The position numbers and the translations under genes were made by a program. Below the pieces are notes generated by a model. It was given only the letters and a program-made list of their open reading frames with translations. It was not told the DNA's origin and made no database searches. A DNA stretch of 47,639 nt, taken from contig JABXKU010000011.1 in the NCBI GenBank assembly GCA_013619105.1, positions 1 to 47,639 on the forward strand. The letters are read 5' to 3'. Positions within the stretch are counted from its first letter, which is position 1, and every line of letters starts with the position of its first letter. The stretch is from Desulfuromonadales bacterium. Lineage in GTDB: Bacteria; Desulfobacterota; Desulfuromonadia; Desulfuromonadales; Syntrophotaleaceae. This document shows positions 20,620 to 44,211 of this stretch, piece by piece.

Positions 20620-20874
20620 ATGCCGATGTACGAGTACCAATGCGAAGAGTGCGGTCTGGTGTTTGAAGCCAGACAAAAATTTTCCGATGCCCCGCTGACC
20701 GAATGCCAAGCCTGTGGCGGTCCGGTCAACAAACTGATTTCCCAAACCGCCTTTGCCCTTAAGGGCAGCGGCTGGTACGAACAGGGTTATTCAAAGACCG
20801 CTAGCAAACCAGCCTGCCCCTCTGCTGCTGCTGGCAAGGGTTGCGGCGGTTGCCCCAAAGCAGCCAACGAATAG
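20620..20874 (+). CDS. FmdB-family zinc-ribbon protein
   Basis: 84 residues. MPMYEYQCEECGLVFE followed by CQACGG gives the CxxC...CxxC zinc ribbon of the FmdB/putative regulatory family. The C-terminal tail is rich in Gly, Ala and Cys (KGCGGCP), which is common in delta-proteobacterial members. Role unknown; the family was named from a formamidase operon. Followed by a strong terminator, so it appears monocistronic. Confidence 0.88.
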   Translation: MPMYEYQCEECGLVFEARQKFSDAPLTECQACGGPVNKLISQTAFALKGSGWYEQGYSKTASKPACPSAAAGKGCGGCPKAANE

Positions 20875-20913: not shown

Positions 20914-21545
20914 GTATCGACCCTACGTCCCTAAGTTTGCGCCCTTGCTACGGGAGAACAAGCTGCAGTTCAAAAGCCTGTCGGCATTGACCGATTGCAG
21001 GCAGCTTGGCTATTCCGCCCACTGGACTCAGGGACACCCAGTTCTCCCCCAGCCGTGATTTTGCCAGAAACAACTGCAACGTCCCAACAACGACAGTATC
21101 GAAGCGATAGCGACCTGTAACGTCCCTACGCCACCGGGAACCTGGTCGCAACCAAAGCGTTCGACCTGAAACCGCGACGCTTTGTTTCCCCAACGCCGAC
21201 AGCCTTCCCTAGCAAGGCTTTTTGAGCGTCAAGGCGCTGAATCCATTTCCGAGCAAACCACCTCCCGACCGGCCAGGAATAACAGTTCATGAATTAGTCC
21301 ATCGGCAGCCCTTCCTCCCAAATGGCTCAGATTTCAGCGAAGGTTTGCCATGGCTATTGAACCACTGTTCAGCGACAATACCTTGAACGGACCGACCACA
21401 ATTCTCCCCCCTGAAGCCCTTTTTCTGGCTTTACAGAACCCGAGGCTTCTCGTATAGTTTTTCTCGGACTAGTGGTGAACCGGACGCAGGCAGGCTTGCG
21501 CAGTGCCGGACAAAGGTCACTTGAAATAAGGTTTGGGAGGAAAGC
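20914..21545. other. About 630 bp without a recognisable gene
   Basis: I see no convincing coding region here. An 81-codon minus-strand frame at 20948-21193 has no ribosome-binding site or motif. The sequence (A)ACGTCCC(T/A) occurs three times, at about 20925, 21079 and 21120. Just before the GcvH-like gene, 21470-21525 contains several short complementary pieces (AGTG/CACT, CCGG/CCGG, GCA/TGC) that could form a leader structure, but it matches no riboswitch I know. This may be decayed coding sequence. Confidence 0.4.
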
Positions 21546-21929
21546 GTGGAAATACCTGAAGAACTATTTTATACGGAAGAACACCTTTGGCTGCTGGTGG
21601 AAGGGGATACCGCCACCATCGGCGTGACAGAATATCTACAGGAAGATTTGGAAGAACTGGCCTCGGTCGAGATTCCCGAACAGGGCGATCTGCTGGAGCT
21701 TGGCGGCCCCATGGCCACAGCCGAGTCGATAAACAGACTGATTGACCTTTACGCCCCGCTAACTGGGGAGGTTCTTGAGACCAACGACGACTTGGCGGAC
21801 TCACCGGACTGGCTGCATCATTCGCCCTATGAAGACGGCTGGCTGCTGCGGATCAAAATCGCGGTTCCGGCGGAAACAGAGGACCTGCTCGAAAGCGACG
21901 ATTACCAGGACTTTGTCGACGGTTTTTAA
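21546..21929 (+). CDS. GcvH-like protein lacking the lipoyl-lysine
   Basis: 127 residues from a GTG preceded by GGGAGGAAAGC. The sequence follows the glycine cleavage H protein fold from end to end: YTEEHLWL, IGVTEYLQEDLEEL, then the hammerhead region ESINRLIDLYAPLTGEVLET. In true H proteins this reads ESVKAxSDxYxPxSGEV and the lysine carries lipoate. Here Asn63 stands at that lysine position with no gap in the alignment. The usual C-terminal SPYEDGWLLRI is kept. No gcvT, gcvP or lipoate ligase gene is adjacent. It cannot be lipoylated at the normal site, so a non-catalytic or carrier-independent role is likely. Confidence 0.82.
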   Translation: MEIPEELFYTEEHLWLLVEGDTATIGVTEYLQEDLEELASVEIPEQGDLLELGGPMATAESINRLIDLYAPLTGEVLETNDDLADSPDWLHHSPYEDGWLLRIKIAVPAETEDLLESDDYQDFVDGF

Positions 21930-21941
21930 AGTCAACAGAAC

Positions 21942-22769
21942 CTAACGGGCACCAAAGATGTCACCGCCGCGTTGCCCGCTGAGGGTCAAGCGATACTGGA
22001 AGAAAGCCATAATCTTTAGTTTGTCGTCCGTATAGGCGCTGGGCAGTTTCCCGTAAGGTGCACCGCGAAAGACTGCGGCCAGAGCTTCCCGGTCGAGACT
22101 CGGGAATCCAGACTTTTCTAAATGCTTCACGGATTCAACACTGCCGTCGCGATTAATGATGATTTCCAGTAGACAGACCCCCTGCTCCCTGCGCTTCGCC
22201 GCCTGTGGTGGGTAATTCCAAACATTGTAGATATTGTTTCGAAAACGTTCGAAAAACGATAACAGCACATCCTTTTCCGTGTCGAGCCAGACCGCATCCC
22301 CTTCCTCGACATCCTCGCGATATTTACTCCGCCATTCTTCTTGATAACGGGACTGGGTGTTCTGCGCCAGGTTAAGATCGATAGCTGAGGGATCGGGCAA
22401 AGGGGCCGAGCCGGGCGCCTTACTGATCGGAGAAGGCTGGCGGGGCTGCGGTGGCGGTGGCGGTGGCGGAACCGGCAACCGATCCTCGGGCGCATCACCC
22501 TTGGGAGCAACCTCTTTCGGCACCGTACGATCCTGCGGGCCAAGACGCTTGGCCGGTGTTTTACGGGGCTCTGGCTGCTCCGGCTGAGGCGGCAGATCGA
22601 GTTCCCGTTCACGGGCCTGCGGCGGACGCACCTCGACGATTACCGGATCCTTCTGCCTTAGATCGCTCAATGAACGAGCGGGAAGAAAGTGCAGCAACAG
22701 AAAATGCAGCAATATAGAACAGAGAATGAATCCTGCGAGAACGGCATCATGCCGACCATGAATATTCAT
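21942..22769 (-). CDS. TonB-like energy transducer
   Basis: 275 residues. One N-terminal transmembrane helix (about 11-29, VLAGFILCSILLHFLLLHFL region), then a Pro/Arg/Lys-rich linker with PPPPPPPQ that spans the periplasm, then a C-terminal TonB domain with LLEIIINRDGSVESVKHLEK and PSLDREALAAV. It would couple the proton motive force to outer-membrane receptors or act in a TolA-like way. No exbB/exbD is adjacent, so the partner is unknown. Convergent with the GcvH-like gene. Confidence 0.85.
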   Translation of the reverse strand: MNIHGRHDAVLAGFILCSILLHFLLLHFLPARSLSDLRQKDPVIVEVRPPQARERELDLPPQPEQPEPRKTPAKRLGPQDRTVPKEVAPKGDAPEDRLPVPPPPPPPQPRQPSPISKAPGSAPLPDPSAIDLNLAQNTQSRYQEEWRSKYREDVEEGDAVWLDTEKDVLLSFFERFRNNIYNVWNYPPQAAKRREQGVCLLEIIINRDGSVESVKHLEKSGFPSLDREALAAVFRGAPYGKLPSAYTDDKLKIMAFFQYRLTLSGQRGGDIFGAR

Positions 22770-22970: not shown

Positions 22971-23972
22971 ATGCATTTAGTAGATCAGATAAAGGCAAAA
23001 GCCCGTCAGAGCCTGCAAACTGTCGTACTGCCCGAAGGTTACGATGACCGCATGATTCAGGCCGCTGGCCCGATCGCCAAGGACAATCTTGCTAATGTCG
23101 TACTGCTTGGTGAACCCGCGGCCCTACAGGCCAAAGCTGCTGAACTCGGTGTTTCCCTTGAGGGCGTCACCCTGCTCGATCCCAAAAGCGCACCTCAGCT
23201 CGACGCCTATGCCGACGAGTTGGTAGAAATCCGCAAGAAAAAGGGCCTGTCCCGTGAAGACGCCCTGAAGCTGCTAACTGGCGACGACAATCTGTTCTTC
23301 GGTGCCATGATGGTCCGCAAGGGCGATGCTGGCGGCTGTGTCGCCGGTGCATACAACACCACCGGCAATGTGCTGCGCGCCGCATTCCAGGTCATTGGAC
23401 CTGCGCCTGGCATGAAAACCGTCTCGTCCTGCTTTATCATGGTAACCAACACCCCTGAATACGGTGAAAACGGCTCCATGCTATTTGCCGACTGCGCCGT
23501 CAATCCCAATCCCGATGCCCGCGCTCTGGCAGAAATCGCTATTTCGACCGCCCGCAGCTGCAAAAGCTTCCTCGGTGTCGATGCGCGAGTGGCCATGCTC
23601 TCCTTCTCCACCAAAGGTAGCGCCAAGCACGCAGACGCAGACAAGGTCATTGAAGCTCTGGCCATCGCCAAAGAGATGGCCCCCGAGCTCCAGATCGACG
23701 GAGAGCTGCAGGCCGATGCCGCCCTGGTACCCAAGGTCGGCGCCAGCAAGGCTCCCGGTTCGACGGTAGCGGGCAAGGCCAACACCCTGGTCTTCCCCAC
23801 CCTGGACGCCGGCAATATCGGGTACAAATTGGTCCAGCGCCTGGCCGGTGCCGAAGCCGTTGGCCCGATCATTCAGGGCTTAGGCAAGCCGGTTAACGAC
23901 CTGTCCCGCGGTTGCTCGGTAGACGACATCATCAATGTCACAGCCATCACTGCTGTTCAGGCTCAGGGCTGA
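22971..23972 (+). CDS. pta: Phosphate acetyltransferase
   Basis: 333 residues, the short form with only the catalytic PTA/PTB domain. It opens with [18 protein letters not shown] and has [19 protein letters not shown] and the C-terminal [17 protein letters not shown], a family signature. It interconverts acetyl-CoA and acetyl phosphate. Preceded by GGAGGAAGCA. It faces ackA across a shared terminator, so the two acetate genes are convergent rather than in one operon. Confidence 0.97.
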
Positions 23973-24059: not shown

Positions 24060-25322
24060 CTAGCGTTCGTAGTCCTTCGATTTGAAGCTGTAGTCGAAGT
24101 CCATGTGATCGCAGTAGGTGCTTTCCAGAATGCCAACCACGTCTTCAGTGAAGACCAGCTCTTCGTCGGTAGGGATAACAAATACCTTGACCGGCGAATC
24201 GGGAGTGGAGATTTCCACTTCGGCTTTTTTGGTACGGGTCTTGAGGTTCTTTGTCTTGTCGATCTTGATACCCAAGGCCTCAAGCCCTTCGAGAGCCTGC
24301 TGACGAATTTCGGAGCCCATTTCGCCAACACCGGCAGTAAAGACGATAGCGTCGACTTTACCCAACACTGCCATGTAGGAACCGATATATTTCCTGATGC
24401 GATAGCATTCGATATCATGGGCCAGTTTGCAGCGCTTGTCGCCGGCATCGATGCCGTTTCCGATATCGCGGCGGTCGGTGTACTGACCGGTGATGCCGAG
24501 CAGACCGGACTTCTTGTTCAGAATGCTGTCCATCTCTTTGGCAGAGTAGCCTTCGACCTGCATCATGAAGGTAGGAATCGCAGGATCGATATCGCCACAG
24601 CGGGTGCCCATAACGGCGCCCTCCAGCGGAGTCATGCCCATGCTGGTATCGACACAGACACCACCGCGAATGGCCGCGTGGGAGGCGCCATTACCGATGT
24701 GCAGAGTAATGACATTACACTCCTTCGGATCCTTATCGAGCAGTACGGCAGCCCGCTTGGATACGTACAGATGGGAAGTGCCGTGAAAACCGTACCGACG
24801 CACGCTGTGCTTTTCGTACCACTCGTAAGGCAAGGGGTACATAAAGGCTTCTTCAGGCATAGTCTGATGGAAAGCGGTATCGAAGATGGCTACGTGGGGC
24901 ACATTAGGCAGCACTTTTTGGGCCGCTTCGATACCCATGATGTTGGGCGGGTTATGCAGAGGGGCTAGATGCTGCACCTCTTTGATCCCATCGAGTACGG
25001 CCTTATCGATCAGCACCGAAGCGGCAAATTTTTCCCCCCCGTGGACCACACGATGGCCGACCGCGGAGATTTCATCCATCGCCTTAACGACGCCGACTTC
25101 TGGGTCGGTCAGGGTCTTGATGATCAGGCCGATGGCAACGGTATGATCGGAGCAATCCTGAGCAAATTTATAGTCGTCGCGGCCGGGTACTTCATGGGCA
25201 ATGAAGGACTCGCCGATGCCGACCCTTTCAACCACACCTTTGGCGATAACGACCTTTTTGTCCCAGTTATAAAGCTGATATTTTACCGATGAACTGCCAC
25301 AATTTAGTGCAAGAATATCCAT
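24060..25322 (-). CDS. ackA: Acetate kinase
   Basis: 420 residues from the ATG at 25322, which follows AAGGAGAAAACGC; a longer frame upstream is not needed. MDILALNCGSSSVKYQLY is the phosphate-binding start of the family, RRYGFHGTSH the second signature, and FTAGVGEMGSEIRQ the third. It makes ATP from acetyl phosphate and ADP, or activates acetate in reverse. Acetate-using Desulfuromonadia rely on it with Pta. Confidence 0.97.
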   Translation of the reverse strand: MDILALNCGSSSVKYQLYNWDKKVVIAKGVVERVGIGESFIAHEVPGRDDYKFAQDCSDHTVAIGLIIKTLTDPEVGVVKAMDEISAVGHRVVHGGEKFAASVLIDKAVLDGIKEVQHLAPLHNPPNIMGIEAAQKVLPNVPHVAIFDTAFHQTMPEEAFMYPLPYEWYEKHSVRRYGFHGTSHLYVSKRAAVLLDKDPKECNVITLHIGNGASHAAIRGGVCVDTSMGMTPLEGAVMGTRCGDIDPAIPTFMMQVEGYSAKEMDSILNKKSGLLGITGQYTDRRDIGNGIDAGDKRCKLAHDIECYRIRKYIGSYMAVLGKVDAIVFTAGVGEMGSEIRQQALEGLEALGIKIDKTKNLKTRTKKAEVEISTPDSPVKVFVIPTDEELVFTEDVVGILESTYCDHMDFDYSFKSKDYER

Positions 25323-25440
25323 GCGTTTTCTCCTTAGCTTTTTTGTTAGGCAAACCATCAAATGGACGCCTAACTCTTGAACAATAAAACGCTTTTTTAC
25401 AAAAAAAGCGCCTTCCAGATCCGGTACAAACTTCGAAATA

Positions 25441-25504
25441 CTAAAGCAGAGACCTTGGAATTGCAAGGGCTTTTATGGACCGACATAGCAATCGGCTGCT
25501 TTAG
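25441..25504. other. Possible three-way-junction structure between ackA and ferredoxin
   Basis: A 9-bp perfect closing stem CTAAAGCAG (25441-25449) / CTGCTTTAG (25496-25504) encloses two hairpins, CCTTG/CAAGG (25453-25457 with 25464-25468) and CCGA/TCGG (25480-25483 with 25492-25495). It could be a structured leader of ackA (minus strand) or a DNA site; it lies upstream of the ferredoxin promoter. It matches no riboswitch I recognise. Confidence 0.35.
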
Positions 25505-29183: not shown

Positions 29184-30398
29184 ATGCTGCCGGTCATCCA
29201 GGAACAGTTACTACTTATCAAAGTGATGCAGGGCGCTTGCCAGACCCTGCTCTGCCTGTCCCTCGGCTACCTGGTGGGCGAGGCTCTGCTCAGCCTGCCC
29301 GGCAAAGCCCTCTTTACGACCAGCCCCCTGCTCCCGGCCCCATCCGAAACATCTTCCGGCCCCAAAGTGCTTACCGGCAGACGTGCCGGCCTGTTGATCG
29401 CCCTAATCATGGCCTGCAACCTACTGCTGATGAAAATCGCCTATCGCGCAGCACTTTTCACCGGCCCCTTCTGGGGGGGAGTGACCGTCCTGTTCATCAT
29501 CGGCCTGGCCCTCATTCTGGCAACCCGGCAGCACCTCAAGGGGGCTCACTCAGCCGGACGCCTATCTCTCATTGCGATTGCCGCCGGCGATTTATTACTG
29601 TTGTCGATCTGCTATTTTCTTCTTAATGCCGAAAGCCTGCTGCTAACTCCTGAGACCTGGCCCTTTCTCACCAGCCGGCCACCCTTACTATTATCCTGGC
29701 ACGGCACCGTCCGTTTTGCTCAATTCACCCTGCTGGCTTTAATGCTGGCGGGACTTGACCGTCGCCACAACCGTCAGCTGCTAATTTTCGTAGCAGCACT
29801 GCTGTGGCCTCTTACTCAGGTTCTTGAGTTGCTGCTGACCCCAGAACTGGCCAGTTCCCCGAATCTCTATCTGATTGCCGCCCTGGCCCTGATGACAAGT
29901 GCCGGTCTTGGCCTGATGATAATTAGGCCACTGTTGCAAAAACGACCGTCGTCTCTAACTCTCCCCCTGACCGGCATCATTATCCTGGCCATGCTCTGGG
30001 TTTTGGGTGCTCAAACCGCTCGCGAGAACACCCTTACAGTGGCCTCTCTGGCGGGCTTACAACTCCCTCCGGTAACGAGCCAGGCAACGGCCACCCCGCC
30101 TGCTACCCAGGCGGCAGCAAAACCAGAGACATCACCGGCAGTCGACGGCGCCCAACTGTTCCAACAAAAATGCAGCGTCTGTCATCGTTTCGACCAACGC
30201 CTGATTGGGCCGCCGCTGAACAGTGTGCTCGAAAAATATCGGCCAGGAAAAGCTAAACTAACAGGGTTTTTACGCACTCCGCAAAAGATCGACCCAGACT
30301 ATCCGACGATGCCCAACCTCGGCCTGACAGAGCAAGAAGCTGGCGCGATAGCCGACTACCTGCTTGATCACAAAATTGTTCAACCAACGCCGCGCTAG
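29184..30398 (+). CDS. Multi-span membrane protein with C-terminal cytochrome c (ActE-like)
   Basis: 404 residues. About eight to nine hydrophobic helices fill residues 10-285, ending with LPLTGIIILAMLWVLGA. A Thr/Ala/Pro-rich linker leads to a monoheme cytochrome c (about 320-400) with CSVCH and a likely distal methionine in YPTMPNLGLTEQEAGAIADY, typical of class I cytochromes. It is the first gene of the alternative complex III cluster. In described complexes ActE is a separate monoheme cytochrome; here no separate ActE gene is present and this protein is the natural candidate for its role. The membrane part is not a known Act subunit to me. Confidence 0.75.
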   Translation: MLPVIQEQLLLIKVMQGACQTLLCLSLGYLVGEALLSLPGKALFTTSPLLPAPSETSSGPKVLTGRRAGLLIALIMACNLLLMKIAYRAALFTGPFWGGVTVLFIIGLALILATRQHLKGAHSAGRLSLIAIAAGDLLLLSICYFLLNAESLLLTPETWPFLTSRPPLLLSWHGTVRFAQFTLLALMLAGLDRRHNRQLLIFVAALLWPLTQVLELLLTPELASSPNLYLIAALALMTSAGLGLMIIRPLLQKRPSSLTLPLTGIIILAMLWVLGAQTARENTLTVASLAGLQLPPVTSQATATPPATQAAAKPETSPAVDGAQLFQQKCSVCHRFDQRLIGPPLNSVLEKYRPGKAKLTGFLRTPQKIDPDYPTMPNLGLTEQEAGAIADYLLDHKIVQPTPR

Positions 30399-30415
30399 GT
30401 CGACACAGGGATTAG

Positions 30416-30447
30416 GGGACCGACCACCCATTTTTGCCGTCGGTCCC
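30416..30447. other. Hairpin between the cytochrome gene and actA
   Basis: GGGACCGAC (30416-30424) pairs perfectly with GTCGGTCCC (30439-30447). No T tract follows, so it is more likely an mRNA-processing or stability structure than a terminator. Confidence 0.45.
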
Positions 30448-30493
30448 TTGGCAACCCCATTCAACCTGCTGCTCGGCCCAAAGAGGCTTTACA

Positions 30494-31006
30494 ATGCCCA
30501 AGTGGTTGCCCCATTCCCTGTTATACGCCTACTTTGGCGGCTTTATACTTCTCATTGCTGCGTTGGCCTGGTTCAGGCCTGTAACGCATCAGGACAACAG
30601 CCAACCCATTGCTTTTCCTCATACAGTTCATGCTGGCCAGCTAGGTCTAGCTTGCAACTTCTGTCACGAGTCGGTAACGCAGGGGCCGCAGGCCGGCATG
30701 CCAACTGTTGACAAATGCGTCTCCTGTCACCAGGCCATTGCGACGGAACGACCGGAAATTCAGAAACTACTGAGTTATCACGAAAAAGGCGAACCGATTC
30801 GTTGGCGTCGCATCCATCAAGTACCCGACTTCATTTACTTTACTCATAAGCGCCACGTTAGAAGCGGGCTGGATTGTAGCGCCTGTCACGGTGCCATCGA
30901 AGAGATGAAGGAAGTACGCCGAGTCCGTTCTCTGCAGATGGGCTGGTGCCTTAGCTGCCATCGCAGTCGAGGGGCTTCCTTTGACTGCGCGACCTGTCAC
31001 AAATAG
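30494..31006 (+). CDS. actA: Alternative complex III subunit ActA, pentaheme cytochrome c
   Basis: 170 residues from the ATG at 30494 (AAGAGG upstream); a longer frame is poor. One N-terminal membrane helix (YAYFGGFILLIAALAWF) anchors a periplasmic domain with five CxxCH motifs: CNFCH, CVSCH, CSACH, CLSCH and CATCH. This is the expected heme count of ActA, which passes electrons from the iron-sulfur chain of ActB to the cytochrome acceptor. First of the canonical Act genes, 62 bp before actB. Confidence 0.9.
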   Translation: MPKWLPHSLLYAYFGGFILLIAALAWFRPVTHQDNSQPIAFPHTVHAGQLGLACNFCHESVTQGPQAGMPTVDKCVSCHQAIATERPEIQKLLSYHEKGEPIRWRRIHQVPDFIYFTHKRHVRSGLDCSACHGAIEEMKEVRRVRSLQMGWCLSCHRSRGASFDCATCHK

Positions 31007-31068
31007 CGTTCATAGAGAAACTCCTTATGAACACTGAAGAGTTTCTGATTTAACGGAGAGAATCGAAC

Positions 31069-33867
31069 ATGGATCGACGGCAGTTTTTACAGATGCTTGG
31101 CCTGGTTTCCGGAGCGGCAGCACTCTCATCTTGCGGTTCAGAAAAGGGCCAGAAAGAACTTGTGTCGCTTCTGGTACCAGCCGAAGACGGCATCGTTCCC
31201 GGGACCGAAAGCTGGCAGCCATCGACCTGTTGTGAATGCCCGGCCCACTGTGGCTTATTGACCCGCATACGAGAAAACCGCCCGGTCAAACTTGAAGGCA
31301 ACCCCCAGCATCCTGTCAATCGCGGCGGCCTGTGCCTGCGCGGTCAGGCCTCGTTGTGGCGACTGTATCATCCTCAACGGTTACAGACCCCTCTTAAACG
31401 GCAAGCCGACGGTCGTTTGCAGGCGATCACCTGGGCTCAGGCATTAACTGAAATCACCGAAGCTCTGCAGCTTAGCCGTCAGCAAGGCCGGAAAAACACC
31501 TGGCTGGCCGGTCGCACCAGCGGCACCCTAAGCACCCTCATCGAAGAATTCTGTGATTCTCTGGATATTGAACGGCTGGCAGAATTTGAACCCTTTTCCC
31601 ATGCCGCGCTGAGACAAAGTTATGGCCTTCTTTTAGACCAGGCCGACCTACCCCGCTATCGGGTCGAACAAGCCGATCTGCTGATCACCGTCGGTGCCGA
31701 CTTGCTCGAAACCTTTATTAGTCCGGTCGATTACACGGCCCAGGCAAGCACCCTGGCTGCCGATCAAAAGCGCCACTGGATGCACCTGGAACCGCACTAT
31801 TCCCTGACCGGTGCCAATGCTGACGACCGGTTGGTCCTGACACCCGGCAGCGAAGGGACTCTGTTGCTCTGGCTGCTGCAGTCCCTGACCTCCCAGAGCC
31901 GATATCGGAGTCGCTGGCCTCAAGCACTGCAGGACTTGCTTCCAAGCACAAACCTTGCAGCAACAGCCAACGCCACCGGATTAAAGCCCCAACAGCTACA
32001 AGAATTGGTATCGCGCTTGATGCAGGCCAAGAAGCCGTTGCTGATTGTCGGCGGGATCGCCACAGGTCATCGCAACGGTCAACCGGTCGCCTTGTTGGGT
32101 GCCCTGCTACAGTGGTTAATCGCTCTTCCTTGGGCCGGGCTGGATTTTTCTGCGGCAGAAAACTATTCACGGGTCGGCTCCCTGCGGGACCTAAAAGATT
32201 TAAACCAGCAGCTCGCCGAGGACCGCATCGGGGTACTGTTTGTCAGCCGCTGTAATCCGGTTCGTCACAGCCCCACTGAGCTAGGTCTGAAAGCGGCCCT
32301 GGCCAAAGCAACGCTGAGGGTTGGCCTGGCGGATTTGGCCGATGACACCACTGACCAGATGGACCTGATCCTGCCACTGGCCCACGGCCTCGAAACCTGG
32401 GGGGACACTGAGCCCCGCCGGGGCGTTATCGGTTTACTGCAACCATTAGCCACCCCGCGACAGCAAGCCCTCAGTGAAGGGGATCTGCTGCTAAAATTGC
32501 TGAAACAGGCCACCGGCAAGAGCCCGGCTGCCGATTGGGAAGCCTACCTGCAACAAACCTGGCAGAAGCGCTTTAGCCGTGCTCAACTCGGTCAACTGAT
32601 GAAAGATGGCTACCTGATCGAACCTCAGCCCCAACCCTCCATTCGTCTCAACCAGGCCCGTGCAGCCAAGGCGCTTCGCAATCTACAACTGCAAGCTCCC
32701 TTAGCCCAGCCAACGGCCGTCATCGCACCGTCAATCCGCTCCTTTGATGGCCGCAGCCGCAGCCTGGAGCTGCTCTCGGAAATTCCCGACCCTCTGACCA
32801 CCATCTCTTACGGTAGTTGGATGGCCGTTTCCCAGCAGACCGCAGATCGACTCCGACTGCGGGACGGTAATGAGCTACAGATTAAAACCGCTGACTGGCA
32901 GAGCAGCCAACCGGTGCGCATCCAGCCGGGTCTGGCAACCGAAATCCTGACCCTGCCCATGGATAGCCTGCCAGCCCCGGTGACAGGCATTGATCCCCTT
33001 ACAGGAGAAGCGCTGCGCTACGTTGAAGGTTTGCAATTAAAGCCCACCGGCAAGCTGCACCGCTTGCCCATCCTGGCCGGATCGCCTTCACAACATGGGC
33101 GCGGCCTGATTCCCAAACCGGTGCAGCGCAAGAAAAAGGGCGACCAACAACATCACGGCCCCCGGGCGTCCTTCTATCCCGAGCCCGAATACGAAAACTA
33201 TCGCTGGACCATGGCCATCGATCTGCAGCGCTGCGTCGGCTGTAGCGCCTGTGTCGCCTCCTGCTATATAGAGAACAATGTACCGGTGGTGGGAGCCTCG
33301 GATCATCTGGCCGGCAGAGAGATGTCCTGGCTGCGCATTGAACCCTTCTACGATGAGCACGGCCAGGTCGATTTTCTGCCCATGCTCTGCCAGCACTGCA
33401 GCTATGCTCCCTGTGAAGCCGTCTGCCCGGTCTATGCTGCCTACCATAACCCCGAGGGACTCAACGTGCAGGTCTATAACCGCTGCGTCGGTACCCGCTA
33501 CTGCAGTAACAACTGCCCCTACAAAGTACGGCGTTTCAACTGGTGGCAGCACAAACGCACTGCGCCCCTCGACCAACTGCGCAACCCTGACGTGCCTGTG
33601 CGCAGCAAGGGAATGATGGAAAAGTGCACCTTCTGTCTGCAACGTATTCGTATCGCCAAGGATCGCGCCAAGGATGACAAACGCCTAGTACAAGACGGTG
33701 AAGTCACCACGGCCTGTGCCCAGAGCTGCCCGACGGGCGCCATCGTCTTTGGCAACCTGCTCGATAAGGAGTCGCAAATTTATCGTCTGACCCACAGCCA
33801 GCGTGCTTACCGGGTCCTCGCCGAACTGGGCACCGAACCGAGCGTGCATTACCTGCGCCCTGAGTAA
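31069..33867 (+). CDS. actB: Alternative complex III subunit ActB (molybdopterin-like plus Fe-S domains)
   Basis: 932 residues. The N-terminus DRRQFLQMLG resembles a twin-arginine signal and is followed by a lipobox ALSSC (C22). Residues about 50-640 form a molybdopterin-oxidoreductase-like domain that begins C54-x2-C57-x3-C61 and C89, a complete [4Fe-4S] site. The C-terminal part (about 700-920) is a NrfC-like ferredoxin with CVGCSACVASC, CQHCSYAPCEAVCP, CVGTRYCSNNCP and CTFC...CAQSCP, enough for four clusters. It receives electrons from quinol at ActC. A 203-bp gap with a repeat element separates it from actC. Confidence 0.9.
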   Translation: MDRRQFLQMLGLVSGAAALSSCGSEKGQKELVSLLVPAEDGIVPGTESWQPSTCCECPAHCGLLTRIRENRPVKLEGNPQHPVNRGGLCLRGQASLWRLYHPQRLQTPLKRQADGRLQAITWAQALTEITEALQLSRQQGRKNTWLAGRTSGTLSTLIEEFCDSLDIERLAEFEPFSHAALRQSYGLLLDQADLPRYRVEQADLLITVGADLLETFISPVDYTAQASTLAADQKRHWMHLEPHYSLTGANADDRLVLTPGSEGTLLLWLLQSLTSQSRYRSRWPQALQDLLPSTNLAATANATGLKPQQLQELVSRLMQAKKPLLIVGGIATGHRNGQPVALLGALLQWLIALPWAGLDFSAAENYSRVGSLRDLKDLNQQLAEDRIGVLFVSRCNPVRHSPTELGLKAALAKATLRVGLADLADDTTDQMDLILPLAHGLETWGDTEPRRGVIGLLQPLATPRQQALSEGDLLLKLLKQATGKSPAADWEAYLQQTWQKRFSRAQLGQLMKDGYLIEPQPQPSIRLNQARAAKALRNLQLQAPLAQPTAVIAPSIRSFDGRSRSLELLSEIPDPLTTISYGSWMAVSQQTADRLRLRDGNELQIKTADWQSSQPVRIQPGLATEILTLPMDSLPAPVTGIDPLTGEALRYVEGLQLKPTGKLHRLPILAGSPSQHGRGLIPKPVQRKKKGDQQHHGPRASFYPEPEYENYRWTMAIDLQRCVGCSACVASCYIENNVPVVGASDHLAGREMSWLRIEPFYDEHGQVDFLPMLCQHCSYAPCEAVCPVYAAYHNPEGLNVQVYNRCVGTRYCSNNCPYKVRRFNWWQHKRTAPLDQLRNPDVPVRSKGMMEKCTFCLQRIRIAKDRAKDDKRLVQDGEVTTACAQSCPTGAIVFGNLLDKESQIYRLTHSQRAYRVLAELGTEPSVHYLRPE

Positions 33868-33888
33868 CTGAAAACAGTCGCCATCGAC

Positions 33889-34040
33889 TGATGCATTTGC
33901 AAAAAACCATAAGATGGCTAAGCAAAAATTTCGATCTACAAGGCCTGGTGTTTTTTCAGGGGCGAAGGCATACATCTCGTATGTCGAGGTCCTGAAAAAA
34001 CGCCGTAACGCCGGAGGGCGGACTTTTTGCAACGACATCA
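33889..34040. repeat. Structured repeat, copy 1 of 2
   Basis: About 150 bp, same orientation as the copy at 38322-38468. Outer inverted repeat TGATG..TTGCAAAAA / TTTTTGCAA..CATCA; main stem GGTGTTTTTTCAGG / CCTGAAAAAACGCC; tip hairpin CATAC-ATCTC-GTATG. Core blocks GATGGCTAAGCAAAAATT and GTCGAGGTCCTGAAAAAA are shared with copy 2. It lies between actB and actC inside the operon and encodes nothing evident. Confidence 0.75.
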
Positions 34041-34069
34041 ACGACCGATATTCATACGATTGAGAGACC

Positions 34070-35362
34070 ATGCAAAACACATCTTCCACTGAGCAGATCG
34101 AACAGGATGTTCTCGCGGCCATGAGTAGACCGAGTCGCTGCTACCTGGCCTGTATTTTTTTGGCCGGGCTGGTGTTTCTTGGCGGCATGGCCCTGTGGAG
34201 CCGACAGATCGCCCTCGGCATGGGCGTTGCCGGCATCAGCCACCCCGTCGGTTGGGGTGTTTACATCACTGATTTTGTCTTTTGGGTCGGCATCGCTCAT
34301 TCCGGCACCCTGATCTCGGCGGTGCTCTATATTTTCCGCGCCCGCTTTCGCACCAGCTTCAACCGCGCCGCCGAAGCGATGACCATCTTCGCCTTGATGG
34401 TGGCAGGCTTGTTCCCCCTGATCCACCTCGGTCGCGTCTGGCTCGCCTACTTCTTGTTTCCTTACCCCAACCAGCGTCAATTGTGGGTCAATTTCCGTTC
34501 GCCTCTAGTGTGGGACGTATTCGCCGTTTCCACCTATATGCTGGTCAGTCTGGTGTTTTTCTTTGTCGGCCTGGTGCCCGATCTGGCCATCGTCGCCCGT
34601 CGCCGCCCCGGCTTTATCGGTAAAATCTATCGCCTGGCGTCCCTCGGCTGGGTCGGCAACTCCCAACAATGGCGTCACTACACCAAGCTCTATTTCTTTC
34701 TGGCTGCCTTTGCCACCCCCCTGGTCGCCTCGGTCCACTCCATCGTCTCCTGGGACTTCGCGGTAAGCATCGTACCCGGTTGGCATACCACCATCTTTGC
34801 CCCTTATTTTGTGGCCGGGGCCATCCTCTCCGGCACCGCCATGGTCATTACGCTGGTGATTCCCATGCGCCGTCTCCTGCGCCTGGAAACCTATATCCCT
34901 ATCTCGCATATCGAATCCATCGCCAAGATTCTGCTGCTGACTTCTCTAATCGTTGGCTTCGCCTATGTGGTTGAACAAGGGCTGGCCTTCTACAGCGGCA
35001 ACCTCTATGAAATGGAACAATTCCGTTTTCGCGCCCTTGGCGACTACCGACTGTTGTTTTGGATTATGGTCAGCTGCAACGCCATCCTGCCACTCACCCT
35101 CTTTGTCGGCCGCCTGAGGCGCAACCTGGCCTACCTCTTTATCCTCTCGCTACTGGTCAACGTGGGGATGTGGTTGGAGCGGTTTGTTATCGTGGTCACT
35201 TCTCTGGCCAGAGACTTCGACCCTTACGCTTGGGGGAATTACACCCCGTCCTTTACTGAGATCGGTATTACCGCAGGCTCTTTTGGGTTATTTTTCTTAC
35301 TCTTTTTGCTCTTCATCAAGATTCTGCCCGTATTGTCGATTACCGAACTGAAGGAGCGCTGA
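34070..35362 (+). CDS. actC: Alternative complex III subunit ActC (NrfD-like quinol-binding)
   Basis: 430 residues, about ten transmembrane helices, NrfD/PsrC family. Signature-like stretches: GVYITDFVFWVGIAHSGTLISA near residue 65 and SVHSIVSWDFAVSIVPGWHT near 225, which are conserved in ActC. It oxidises menaquinol or ubiquinol at the periplasmic side and hands electrons to ActB. Starts 203 bp after actB because of the repeat element. Followed by actD with 1 bp between. Confidence 0.93.
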   Translation: MQNTSSTEQIEQDVLAAMSRPSRCYLACIFLAGLVFLGGMALWSRQIALGMGVAGISHPVGWGVYITDFVFWVGIAHSGTLISAVLYIFRARFRTSFNRAAEAMTIFALMVAGLFPLIHLGRVWLAYFLFPYPNQRQLWVNFRSPLVWDVFAVSTYMLVSLVFFFVGLVPDLAIVARRRPGFIGKIYRLASLGWVGNSQQWRHYTKLYFFLAAFATPLVASVHSIVSWDFAVSIVPGWHTTIFAPYFVAGAILSGTAMVITLVIPMRRLLRLETYIPISHIESIAKILLLTSLIVGFAYVVEQGLAFYSGNLYEMEQFRFRALGDYRLLFWIMVSCNAILPLTLFVGRLRRNLAYLFILSLLVNVGMWLERFVIVVTSLARDFDPYAWGNYTPSFTEIGITAGSFGLFFLLFLLFIKILPVLSITELKER

Positions 35363-35363
35363 T

Positions 35364-35816
35364 ATGGCCCGACAGCTTTTCTTTGACGATCAGCAAACCT
35401 TTCTGCAGCAGTTGGAACAATTGCTAAGCGATGGAATACCCAGTGGACAGCTGGACGTACGAACCCCGTACCATCTCAGCGAAATCGACACCTTGCTTGG
35501 CCAGCCGCCGAGCAAGCTGCCGTTGTTTGCTCTGGGAGGAGCCCTGGCCGGTTTCGGCGGCGGCTTCCTGCTGGCAGCGCTAACCTCCCTCGACTGGCCC
35601 GTCATCACCGGCGGCAAACCGATTGTGGCAGTACCCGCCTTTCTGCTGATCGGCTACCTGATGACCATCCTCATCGGATCGCTGGCCTCCTTTGCCGGTT
35701 TTCTACTCCTGGCCAGGCTGCCCCAAGTCGACGCTCTGCTCGAAGAACAGGATTTCGACTCTCGATTTATCATCACCATTGCCGACGAGGTGGCCCCATG
35801 CACGACACCAAACTGA
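35364..35816 (+). CDS. actD: Alternative complex III subunit ActD
   Basis: 150 residues. DVRTPYHLSEIDTLLGQPPS is the DUF3341 start typical of ActD, followed by two transmembrane helices (LFALGGALAGFGGGFLLAA and a second near 85-120). A membrane subunit of unknown function in the complex. AAGGAGCGCTGAT precedes the ATG. Its end overlaps actF by 19 nt. Confidence 0.9.
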   Translation: MARQLFFDDQQTFLQQLEQLLSDGIPSGQLDVRTPYHLSEIDTLLGQPPSKLPLFALGGALAGFGGGFLLAALTSLDWPVITGGKPIVAVPAFLLIGYLMTILIGSLASFAGFLLLARLPQVDALLEEQDFDSRFIITIADEVAPCTTPN

Positions 35817-36859
35817 GCATCGGCGGCTGCTATAGCCTGCTGTTGATTCTGGCCGCCACCATCGGTCTCATTGAATACGGTGGACTCATCGCTCAACCCG
35901 GCTCACTGCTCCTCACCCTGACCTTTTGGGGATCCATCATTCAGGGTGCCGTCGCCGTCGCGGCGGTGACCGCCCTGGTGCGGGCCCAATGGATCGCTTC
36001 GCTGCGCCGCGAGCTGCTCGCCCTCTACCCCCTGCTATTACTGTTGGCGCTGCTCTTCGCCCTACTCTGGCCCCAGCTCGACCTTTTCCCCTGGAGCGAC
36101 CATCCCACTATCTGGCTCAACCGGCCTTTCTTTATGGGACGTAATCTGGTCAGCTTGCTATTAACGTTTCTGGCCGGGCGTCAACTGGCCCTGCACAGCA
36201 CCAGCGGCGCTCCCTTCAAGGACCGTTATGCCGTAATCTATCTGGCCACCTTTGTTCTTTCTCAAAGCCTATTAGGGTTCGACTGGCTCATGTCGGCGGC
36301 TTTCCCCTGGATCAGCACCATGTTCGGCCTCTACTTCTTCACCGAAGCCCTCTATGCGGGTATTGCCGTTTCTGGCCTGGCCATGCTGCTCTACTTCCGC
36401 CCCCGGATGCAGACCGCACCAAAGGATACGGTTCGTCACTTGCGCGATGTCGGCCTGCTATTGTTCGGTTTCAGCATCCTCTGGGCCGGACTATTCTTCG
36501 CCCAGTTCCTACTCATCTGGTATGCCAACCTGCCCGAAGAGGTTCACTTCGTTACCGAACGTCTGGCCAGTTTCCCCGAACGGGAGCTATGCTGGCTGTT
36601 TCTGCTCGGCCTGTTTCTGGTCCCCTTTGTCGCCTTGCTCGGCAGCCAGGCCAAAGGCGACTTACGCTTTGTTTCGGCCGTTTCGTTGTTGGTTCTAAGC
36701 GGGCTTTTTGCCGAGCGACTGTTCATTCTATTACCCGCCATCCCCTATCATGGTGGTGCTCTGTTGCTTTACAACGGCCTGATCTTTGTCATGCTATTAC
36801 TAGTCCTGCACAGCAGCGAACGTTTGCTGCCTTCAGCCTCTTTTCTGACAAAGGATTGA
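35798..36859 (+). CDS. actF: Alternative complex III subunit ActF
   Basis: 353 residues, about nine to ten transmembrane helices. FKDRYAVIYLATFVLSQSLLG and GFDWLMSAAFPWISTMFGLY resemble the ActF/NrfD-like family, and the pattern continues with a second GLLLFGFSILWAGLFFAQFL. It is a second NrfD-like membrane subunit that lacks the quinol site in described complexes. It overlaps actD by 19 nt; GAGGTG stands upstream of the ATG. Last gene of the cluster; actE is not present between actD and actF as it is in Rhodothermus. Confidence 0.9.
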   Translation: MHDTKLSIGGCYSLLLILAATIGLIEYGGLIAQPGSLLLTLTFWGSIIQGAVAVAAVTALVRAQWIASLRRELLALYPLLLLLALLFALLWPQLDLFPWSDHPTIWLNRPFFMGRNLVSLLLTFLAGRQLALHSTSGAPFKDRYAVIYLATFVLSQSLLGFDWLMSAAFPWISTMFGLYFFTEALYAGIAVSGLAMLLYFRPRMQTAPKDTVRHLRDVGLLLFGFSILWAGLFFAQFLLIWYANLPEEVHFVTERLASFPERELCWLFLLGLFLVPFVALLGSQAKGDLRFVSAVSLLVLSGLFAERLFILLPAIPYHGGALLLYNGLIFVMLLLVLHSSERLLPSASFLTKD

Positions 36860-41591: not shown

Positions 41592-42749
41592 ATGAGCAAC
41601 GCAGCATTCTGGAAAGAACTTTGGCATGACAGGGACCCTATCGTCTACCGACAGGGAGGTTGTCGAACCTGCCCTGCTGAAGCCACCCTTGATCGCATCC
41701 ACCCCCTGTTGTCCCGAGCCGGAATTGTTCGAGTAACTGAACTGACCGGACTAGACCGGGTCGGTATCCCGGTAGCCATGGCTGTTCGCCCGGACGGGTG
41801 GATTGAATCCGCATCTTACGGCAAAGGGGCGACCCGGGTACAAGCCATCGTCGGTGCGGCCATGGAATGCCTGGAACGCTGGCACGCGGAACACGTCATG
41901 CTTAGCCCCATGCAATGCCCTTACGGACAGATTGAACAACGATTGGGTTATGACCTTTTCCAGTTAACCGTCGCCGATCCCTGTCTGATCACTGAGTCGA
42001 CACCAATCGACTGGCTTCCGGCCATCATCGCCCGCTCTGGGGAGCCCACCTATATCCCTGCAGAACTGGCACATCTGGATTTTCGAACAGACAGGCGCCT
42101 AGACCTTCCCAGGTTCCGACCCAACACGAACGGACTGGCCAGCGCAAACACCGTACAGGAAGCTTTCCTGCATGCACTTTGTGAACTGGTTGAACGTGAC
42201 GCTCTGGCAAGACACCACAACGGAAGCTCTCGCGAAAAGATCGTTCGACTTGAAAGCATTCCGCCTGGAGAGGTCCAACACCTGGTCGCCAGGTTTCAGG
42301 AACAGAATTTCGTGGTTAGGCTGTCCGAGCTACCTTCGCCAACGGGACTTCCAACGATGATGGCCCAAGTGTGGTGCCCTGAGGACCAAAGCCTTTTTAT
42401 GGGGTCTGGCAGCCACCTCGACCGTAATATTGCAGCGGTCAGAGCCTTAACTGAAGTCGCCCAGACACGGTTATGTCGAAAGGTTGGATTGGGTGAAAGC
42501 CTGAACCCTGAAGATGACCTACGTTGGCCCTATCCTCCCGAGACTTCTGATTTGGAGATGGTTAACTGGCAACAAACACCGCACGTGGAGTGTAACCTGT
42601 CATTGGCACAGTTGACGGCGCTGGTCCTTGATCGCATTGAACAGTATACCGGGCAAAGCGTTATTGCTACCGACCTGCGCCACTCCCAAATGAACCAATT
42701 GCCAGTTGTTTTTGCCTTTGCGCCTGGGATGCTCTATGTCGAAGCCTGA
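41592..42749 (+). CDS. YcaO-domain ATP-dependent cyclodehydratase/thioamidation protein
   Basis: 385 residues. ATP and Mg2+ site elements of YcaO are visible: GAAMECLERWHAEH (about residue 93), LHALCELVERDALARHH (about 195) and AVRALTEVAQTRL (about 285). YcaO proteins phosphorylate a peptide amide so that a cysteine, serine or external sulfide can attack it, giving azolines or thioamides. The adjoining TfuA protein points to the thioamide-forming subgroup. No E1-like or ocin-ThiF leader-binding domain is fused. The C-terminus ends FAFAPGMLYVEA, without the Pro-rich tail of azoline-forming members. The ATG at 41592 has only a weak ribosome-binding site. Overlaps tfuA by 14 nt. Confidence 0.88.
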   Translation: MSNAAFWKELWHDRDPIVYRQGGCRTCPAEATLDRIHPLLSRAGIVRVTELTGLDRVGIPVAMAVRPDGWIESASYGKGATRVQAIVGAAMECLERWHAEHVMLSPMQCPYGQIEQRLGYDLFQLTVADPCLITESTPIDWLPAIIARSGEPTYIPAELAHLDFRTDRRLDLPRFRPNTNGLASANTVQEAFLHALCELVERDALARHHNGSSREKIVRLESIPPGEVQHLVARFQEQNFVVRLSELPSPTGLPTMMAQVWCPEDQSLFMGSGSHLDRNIAAVRALTEVAQTRLCRKVGLGESLNPEDDLRWPYPPETSDLEMVNWQQTPHVECNLSLAQLTALVLDRIEQYTGQSVIATDLRHSQMNQLPVVFAFAPGMLYVEA

Positions 42750-44211
42750 AAAAGAAGTTCACGTTTTTTCCGGTGAGGCCACTCTCACCATTGAGGATCG
42801 TCTCATTATTCCACAGGCGGTCTGGCATCCGCCTGCTGCCCGTGGCGACCTATTGCGCGTCGCATCAGCGGATGTCATCATCCTCTACATCGATGCGGCT
42901 CCATCTAGGCTGCAACCGTCTTACAAAGAAATCCAGGCCCTCCTTAAAAGGGGGGCCGTTGTTGTCGGAGCTGGCCGGGAGGGGGCACTCCGAGCAATGG
43001 AATTGGAATCTTATGGCATGGCGGCCCCTGGACGCCTGCCTGCCTTGTTGAAAGAGGATGTGCTTGCCCGTGAGGATGCCATTCTGCCCGCTGCATGCGA
43101 GACAGGCGCCCCCTCCCTTAGTCTGGCCCATCTAGCCCACCTGACATCGAACCTTGTCGAGCAGGGCCTTTGGAGCGCCACATTAAGAACCTGTGCTATC
43201 GATCAGGCAGGAGAAATTCCTGCTGCAGACAGGCGCCTATCGCAACTGGTCAAGAGATGGCGTATCGCGGGAATGGACAAGGAGGAGATAGAAAGGCTGA
43301 CCTCACTGCTCTTTGCACAGCCGGTGGACATTTGCCGCCAGGACGCTCTTCATGCATTAAACACCATCTACCAACAGCAGGGCCCCTCCACCACGGTTCT
43401 AAAAAAACTGGCACCACCGACCCTTTTTTTCTGCCCCACGGAACGCTTAGCAATGGGGCAGTGGGAAGAAAAAGAGTTCATTCGTGACAACCACGTTTTG
43501 GCAACTTTCCGCCTGTTTAGTGGACAAGCGAAGCAGGTTCATCAGGAAACCATTCAGCACCTGGCCATGCTCGAATGGGCCAGGGACGAAGGGGGCAAGG
43601 ACAACCGGACAAAGCCTGGGCACCTATTGGGGGCCAACATTCCTTCACGCCCTTCACAACAGGATCCTTGGGCATTGGGTCATAGTCTCTCCTCGGAAGA
43701 AAAGGTCCAATGGCTCAACGAGGAGTCGGTACTTGCCCAGTTTGAGGAATGCAAAGGCGTAAAGAGTAAAGAAGGACAGGCCCAAATTCGGTCTGCCGCC
43801 CTACGGCGCGTCTGTAAAATAAAAGGGATTAACCTCGAAGGCAAAGAACTGCCCCCTGACCAGTATGCGGTGGCCTGGCTACGCTTTCGCCGCTATCTGG
43901 ATCCGATGGAAAATACCCTCATCTGGGTCAAAGCCAAAGGCTTGTACCAATCAGCCGTTAACTGCTGGCGTGATATCTCGACCTTTAACAGAGCCCTTGC
44001 AACACAGAACCCTGAGTTTCAATGTGGCACCATCTCCACGGCAGTCGTTCGAGATTTTTTCTGCGACCTTTGGAATATCCCCCCAGAGGAATTTCATCAT
44101 GACCTGCGCTTACGGGGTTTTCGCGGGGAACGTGACTTTCTTACAGCCGCACGACGCCACTACGCCTTTGCCCTACATATTCAGCAACTCGGCTGTCGCC
44201 TAACGCTTTAG
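42736..44211 (+). CDS. TfuA-domain protein with long C-terminal extension
   Basis: 491 residues from the ATG at 42736, overlapping ycaO by 14 nt. The TfuA core (about 5-150) is recognisable from VFSGEATL, PPAARGDLLRVASADVIILYI, LQPSYKEIQALLKRGAVVVG and EGALRAMELESYGM, the counterpart of the usual SMGALRAAEL-x2-FGM. After about residue 210 come nearly 280 further residues with no similarity I know, mostly helical, including EFQCGTISTAVVRDFFCDLW near the end. TfuA proteins work with YcaO in thioamidation (trifolitoxin, thiovarsolin, archaeal methyl-CoM reductase), perhaps handling sulfur. Known members are often about half this size. Confidence 0.8.
   Translation: MSKPEKEVHVFSGEATLTIEDRLIIPQAVWHPPAARGDLLRVASADVIILYIDAAPSRLQPSYKEIQALLKRGAVVVGAGREGALRAMELESYGMAAPGRLPALLKEDVLAREDAILPAACETGAPSLSLAHLAHLTSNLVEQGLWSATLRTCAIDQAGEIPAADRRLSQLVKRWRIAGMDKEEIERLTSLLFAQPVDICRQDALHALNTIYQQQGPSTTVLKKLAPPTLFFCPTERLAMGQWEEKEFIRDNHVLATFRLFSGQAKQVHQETIQHLAMLEWARDEGGKDNRTKPGHLLGANIPSRPSQQDPWALGHSLSSEEKVQWLNEESVLAQFEECKGVKSKEGQAQIRSAALRRVCKIKGINLEGKELPPDQYAVAWLRFRRYLDPMENTLIWVKAKGLYQSAVNCWRDISTFNRALATQNPEFQCGTISTAVVRDFFCDLWNIPPEEFHHDLRLRGFRGERDFLTAARRHYAFALHIQQLGCRLTL

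Follow-up and report, generated by a model that had tools for sequence, protein, structure and literature searches.

A glycine cleavage H-protein gene, here called gcvH*, persists in a family of Syntrophotaleaceae-like Desulfuromonadales as the in-place remnant of a stripped gcv operon; its products lack the lipoyl-lysine at all family loci found and remain under purifying selection. We analysed the gene and its surroundings in a single stretch of 47,639 nucleotides (the window), part of a draft genome (G000) in which gcvH* is the only GcvH found, and compared it with homologues across the family, the order and the class (Table 1).

Table 1 Features of the stripped gcv locus in the window
Feature	Position	Strand	Remarks
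gcvH*	21546..21929	+	H-protein fold, 127 aa, GTG start, without lipoyl-lysine
Asn63 codon AAC	21732-21734	+	at lipoyl-lysine position
Ribosome-binding site GGGAGG	21535..21540	+	five bases ahead of GTG start; assigned by eye
fmdB-like zinc-ribbon protein	20620..20874	+	upstream flank of stripped locus
Putative aminopeptidase gene remains (PF10023)	20921..21350	+	frames broken; eroded
TonB-like protein	21942..22769	-	convergent neighbour of gcvH*
pta, phosphate acetyltransferase	22971..23972	+	anchor of conserved locus
ackA, acetate kinase	24060..25466	-	anchor of conserved locus; likely start downstream of listed ORF start

Residues 8–124 of gcvH* match the Pfam family GCV_H (PF01597) at 111.3 bits against a cut-off of 22.2. 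The protein also scores 116.6 bits against the NCBI equivalog for GcvH (TIGR00527), barely above the cut-off of 115.85, so automatic annotation would call it GcvH; its relative in genome G006 falls below the same cut-off at 110.0 bits. An AlphaFold model built from 12 input sequences reaches a mean pLDDT of 91.7 (an earlier prediction from 5 sequences was poor, with a pLDDT of 56.3, and was discarded), and the four best Foldseek matches to this model are H-proteins with TM-scores by query of 0.93–0.95 and rmsd of 1.2–1.5. Predicted strands at residues 55–61 and 65–69 still flank position 63, where an asparagine faces the lipoyl-lysine of solved H-proteins, and the site is gap-free in four alignments. 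Alignment to solved structures thereby bears out the central observation of an earlier, sequence-only reading of this DNA, which had placed Asn63 at the lipoyl-lysine of a GcvH-like protein. The sole lysine of gcvH*, K104, lies outside the hairpin, and the protein contains no cysteine. The good ribosome-binding site remarked on in that reading is also present, and among the other family loci a GGAG-containing site precedes ATG in six of seven compared, the seventh (L055, in G006) having a run of G.

Comparison with relatives that hold a complete system reveals the origin of the locus. Six loci (L089, L091, L094, L095, L096 and L100) show the full order folD-metV-metF-gcvT-gcvH-gcvPA-gcvPB-<tonB-pta-<ackA; L090 begins within folD, and L098 has the identical gene set with the pta side rearranged. 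Family loci instead read fmdB, gcvH, tonB, pta and ackA, as far as contigs extend. Because the place that holds the full operon in relatives is stripped here, gcvH* is an in-place remnant of the native gcv operon. The sequence-only reading had proposed collecting lysine-less homologues and looking for shared neighbours. Such homologues exist and do share fmdB, tonB, pta and ackA, but these genes also flank the complete operon of relatives and therefore look inherited, giving no evidence for a new functional partner; beyond these inherited neighbours, no partner gene linked to gcvH* was found. Upstream, the 630-bp stretch once described as gene-free holds an eroded gene: from the end of fmdB at 20874 to the start of gcvH* at 21546 lie fragments, with broken frames, of a putative aminopeptidase gene. 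Genomes G003 and G004 of the same genus carry it there as an open frame, with the G004 copy, the one run against Pfam, scoring 384.2 bits to PF10023.

Loss of the neighbouring genes extends to the genome. No GcvP or GcvT scores above cut-off in the window's own genome, consistent with the earlier statement that no glycine cleavage gene adjoins gcvH*. Across the family, GcvP is above cut-off in 0 of 14 genomes (G005 and G009 have weaker matches of about 105 positions each) and GcvT in one, as a partial match near a contig edge in G012; LipA is above cut-off in all but G009. The wider set of 58 relatives includes 42 with a match to the window protein and 32 with GcvP above cut-off, and a GcvH match without GcvP occurs in 11 genomes, namely ten of the family and G017. 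The reverse, GcvP without a GcvH match, is found in one genome, G048. Separately, the window's genome carries a full LipA match and a partial 154-bit match in a 137-aa frame (G000:C75, G000:C102).

Homologues of gcvH* occur at 11 loci in 10 of the 14 family genomes, with two loci in G009; none was found in G001 (86% complete), G005 (100%), G012 (84%) or G013 (78%). In G005 (locus L088), 145 bases separate fmdB from tonB and gcvH is absent; as this genome is complete, the gene is dispensable there. The remains of the locus differ in another relative, G052 (L093), which keeps folD between fmdB and tonB, whereas in G005 tonB directly follows fmdB; neither genome has a GcvH match or GcvP above cut-off. 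Four weak GCV_H matches in G007, G008, G011 and G012 (21.6–24 bits over 46–74 profile positions) were set aside as presumed parts of other proteins; three of them sit in frames of 448–473 aa.

The lipoyl-lysine is absent from 11 of 11 family loci. Lysine in close relatives, which the sequence-only reading had named as a sign of local mutation or sequencing error, is thus seen in none of the family sequences, and the observation stands. No conserved replacement emerged, since position 63 is Asn in genus g1 (4 loci), Arg in g4 (3) and Gln in g3 (4). One of the G009 loci encodes the same Arg protein as G007, leaving 10 distinct proteins. All 20 lysine-bearing relatives compared have AAA or AAG at position 63, and the family codons AAC, AGG and CAA/CAG each lie one step from one of these, so up to three separate lysine losses within the family are possible on codon grounds. 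Although the assembly behind the window is a draft of 205 contigs, an assembly or sequencing error, or a mutation confined to one strain, has a negligible chance of explaining the missing lysine, which is absent in 10 genomes of three genera, including the single-contig genomes G003 (3.2 Mb) and G006 (3.7 Mb). Lysine loss is therefore more general than a view of one sequence could reveal: the original observation is confirmed, and its interpretation is partly supported.

One part that does not survive is the claim that every other H-protein landmark is retained. Changes are seen in 11 of 11 family sequences at sixteen positions whose residue is shared by at least 19 of 20 lysine-bearing relatives (14, 29, 31, 36, 37, 39, 40, 54, 56–59, 63, 66, 100 and 102), and seven of them fall at 54–66, the hairpin surrounding the lysine. 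Among the 20 comparison sequences Glu14 is missing from one, that of G017, which is also a lone gcvH. Glu14 and Ser66 in gcvH* numbering, lost throughout the family, correspond to E. coli Glu14 and Ser67; the equivalent of E. coli Glu12 is E, D or K in the family, that of Asp68 is D or E, and that of Tyr70 is retained. According to the available portion of PMC7733448, these five E. coli residues hold or gate the aminomethyl-lipoate arm, and E. coli tolerates many changes of Ser67, which alone mostly tune activity (PMC7733448), so that loss of this serine is by itself not decisive. With both the lysine and the lipoate-arm residues gone, H-protein chemistry would rule out carriage of lipoate or an aminomethyl group by gcvH* in the usual way.

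Despite these losses relative to the canonical glycine cleavage H-protein, gcvH* shares with it the fold, the length, the native place of the gcv operon in the order and 23 family-invariant positions at which at least 19 of 20 lysine-bearing relatives have the same residue, including HxW and SPYxDxW. The family also has residues of its own: Glu29, Leu31, Thr58, Ser86 and Trp89 occur family-wide and are missing from the 20 lysine-bearing relatives; among 76 sequences from outside the family Trp89 is found in none and Ser86 in some. Ten within-genus family pairs give dN/dS of 0.067–0.199, values that are rough because dS exceeds 1, near saturation, in five of them; the eleventh pair is identical. 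Four pairs of lysine-bearing relatives, one including the lone G017 copy, give 0.084–0.161, and a fifth is saturated. Nonsynonymous changes are likewise in deficit between the window and G002, G004 and G003 (p = 6e-7, 3e-7 and 2e-17, respectively, from rounded counts and uncorrected for three tests). These data demonstrate that gcvH* is under purifying selection and, as the sequence-only reading had held, not decaying. The opposing idea, that gcvH* is a relic left unmaintained after the other gcv genes went and merely unbroken so far, could draw on the genus-by-genus variation of the lysine site, the loss of arm-cavity residues and the absence of the gene from G005. We nevertheless regard it as improbable in view of the low dN/dS in three genera, the full predicted fold and the 40 invariant columns among 10 family sequences; moreover, the neighbouring upstream gene did decay in the same genome.

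Lone gcvH genes are not restricted to the family. A profile of the family proteins matched 239 of 277 genomes of the class searched, with family members at 215–225 bits and the next best, among the matches listed, at 163.5. Position 63 was checked in 76 outside sequences, comprising part of the profile matches and one Thiomargarita sequence, and is lysine in 75; the exception has Asn and comes from another family (locus L156, genome G116). Three more lineages of the order have no gcvT, gcvPA or gcvPB beside gcvH, and one of them is also without the lysine. Lone lysine-bearing copies lie at the same place in G017 and G135 (genus g8), where folD, metV and metF are retained, and in G039, G129 and G130 (genus g27), where folD is retained. 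The third lineage is G116, whose locus has folD, gcvH, tonB and pta, with ackA about 4.6 kb further, on a contig that ends in folD. All six thus resemble gcvH* in place and in the missing partners, and differ from it in the adjoining folD and, in five, in the lysine. Because folD adjoins gcvH and the pta of G116 is only 78% identical to that of the window (88–99% within the family), the G116 locus differs from the family type. G116 and G135 possess a second cluster elsewhere with gcvT-, gcvH-, gcvPA- and gcvPB-like genes, and GcvP of G039 is on another contig, with the reservation that several of these genomes are drafts in which contamination is possible. Purifying selection likewise acts on the lone copies with lysine (0.039–0.131 in four pairs).

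A tree of 54 sequences places the family in one group (support 99/95), although the bootstrap is unsettled, and calls for at least two changes for lysine loss and four for lone status. On the gene alone, an AU test does not reject one shared origin for both lysine-less groups (p = 0.193), with L156 on a long branch, and the case for their separateness rests on taxonomy and locus context. Glu14 loss was tried as a sole marker of lone gcvH and dropped, as 15 of 76 outsiders lack Glu14 and keep the lysine and the lone copies of G129 and G116 have Glu14. These 15 outsiders, the GcvH proteins L138–L146 and L159–L164, belong to families f22–f25, and in them a DPYD-type motif replaces SPYED. A further divergent GcvH-like protein, on an IMG/VR contig (L208:1001-1381), aligns without lysine at position 63 and scores under the cut-off of all four NCBIfam models matched.

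H-like proteins outside glycine cleavage have precedents. Chlamydiae encode a GcvH-like protein (TIGR03077) where the rest of the system is absent; gcvH* scores 53.2 against the cut-off of 144.05 for this model (not_gcvH), and 35.7 against the cut-off of 150 for NF045810 (GcvH_rel_desulf). Streptococcal GcvH-L, which has the H fold, likewise functions elsewhere than in glycine cleavage, in partnership with a sirtuin and a macrodomain protein. Its structure (PDB 5a35) matches gcvH* with a TM-score of 0.78 at 22% identity, and sirtuin and macrodomain partners are absent among the gcvH* neighbours scanned. LbpA of sHdr sulfur oxidation, as described in the available part of PMC6067878, is a GcvH relative that also acts outside glycine cleavage, but it strictly keeps the lysine and two cysteines (some archaeal ones are without the cysteines; PMC6067878), and gcvH* has neither the conserved lysine nor the two cysteines. 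A literature search by titles and abstract openings, covering the matches listed and few subscription journals, found no description of an H-protein retained without its lysine.

The gene order of the window also matches that of Pelobacter carbinolicus, in which the accessible part of PMC3543383 lists a TonB-like gene (Pcar_2541), phosphate acetyltransferase (Pcar_2542) and acetate kinase (Pcar_2543), so gcvH* is apparently the P. carbinolicus 'LarG'. That source, as far as it was available, proposes LarG as a lipoyl carrier passing electrons from the Act complex to dihydrolipoamide dehydrogenase and makes no reference to an absent lysine (PMC3543383). The setting in the window is similar, with act-like genes at 29184–36859, but the missing lysine contradicts this published idea of a lipoyl electron carrier for the apparent LarG, at all 11 family loci. 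A nearby oxidoreductase, taken as the dehydrogenase gene of PMC3543383, reaches 376.3 bits against dihydrolipoyl dehydrogenase, short of the cut-off of 408.8, and 818.1 bits against 'FAD-containing oxidoreductase'. We consider the lipoyl carrier role very improbable for the family protein. The act-like (alternative complex III) gene set itself, assigned by eye, comprises a long ORF whose C terminus carries a cytochrome c domain, multiheme-like and NrfD-type proteins and a molybdopterin/Fe-S protein of 932 aa. Elsewhere in the window, a TfuA-like protein comes after a YcaO protein, their frames overlapping (41592–44211), a pairing that occurs in peptide thioamidation.

Retention of the fold under selection, together with new fixed residues, suggests a binding role. 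An ancestor of the family lost gcvT, gcvPA and gcvPB around gcvH, as synteny shows. The lysine and the residues holding the lipoate arm are gone, the fold and a set of positions stayed under purifying selection, and Glu29, Leu31, Thr58 and Trp89 became family-wide. We propose that the product now most likely works by binding without lipoate, as an adaptor or regulator docking on a partner via the H-protein body and no longer shuttling a cofactor. From the sequence comparisons, reuse of the operon remnant in this manner is probably what occurred, with some room for doubt given the absence of the gene from G005 and the variation of position 63 among N, R and Q. More tentatively, H-proteins of the Desulfuromonadales may have had a second, lipoate-independent function older than the loss of glycine cleavage, which, if true, would account for the survival of gcvH alone in four lineages and the loss of its lysine under selection in two.

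The most concrete rival to reuse as an adaptor holds that gcvH* is a pseudosubstrate: LipA and LipB would still bind its retained H-protein body, and as a protein that cannot be modified it would buffer or regulate how far E2 and other remaining lipoyl enzymes are lipoylated. The prevalence of lipA in the family (13 of 14 genomes) suits this proposal, as do fold matches that include H-protein complexes with lipoyl synthase and lipoate ligase (8ugo, 3a7a); the clustering of lost positions in the hairpin around the lysine and the presence of lipA in G005, which has no gcvH*, make it unlikely. Another candidate function is a docking role kept in the assembly of dithiomethylamine on HydF during [FeFe]-hydrogenase maturation. 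Aminomethyl-lipoyl-H-protein takes part in making this ligand, according to the available part of PMC11736057, and HydF is above cut-off in 13 of 14 family genomes as against 3 of 44 other relatives. The known way of carrying the group is, however, impossible without the lysine, and the link between HydF and gcvH*, strong by family, failed on individual genomes: HydF is present in G005, where gcvH* is missing, and no HydF scores above cut-off in G017 or G039, each with a lone gcvH. A role as hydrogenase maturation helper is accordingly even less probable than the relic considered above.

This kind of protein is already known; what is new is a presumably lipoate-free form under selection at a repeatedly stripped locus. 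The finding bears on the P. carbinolicus proposal and on standard annotation, in which the window protein still receives the name GcvH from an equivalog model. It also bears on whether [FeFe]-hydrogenase maturation universally needs lipoyl-H-protein, as no lysine-bearing H-protein was found in the family even though HydF is above cut-off in nearly all its genomes. If the proposed reuse is true, gcvH* would be a clear case of a cofactor carrier retained for another use despite the loss of its cofactor site, with repeated natural experiments at one locus available to compare.
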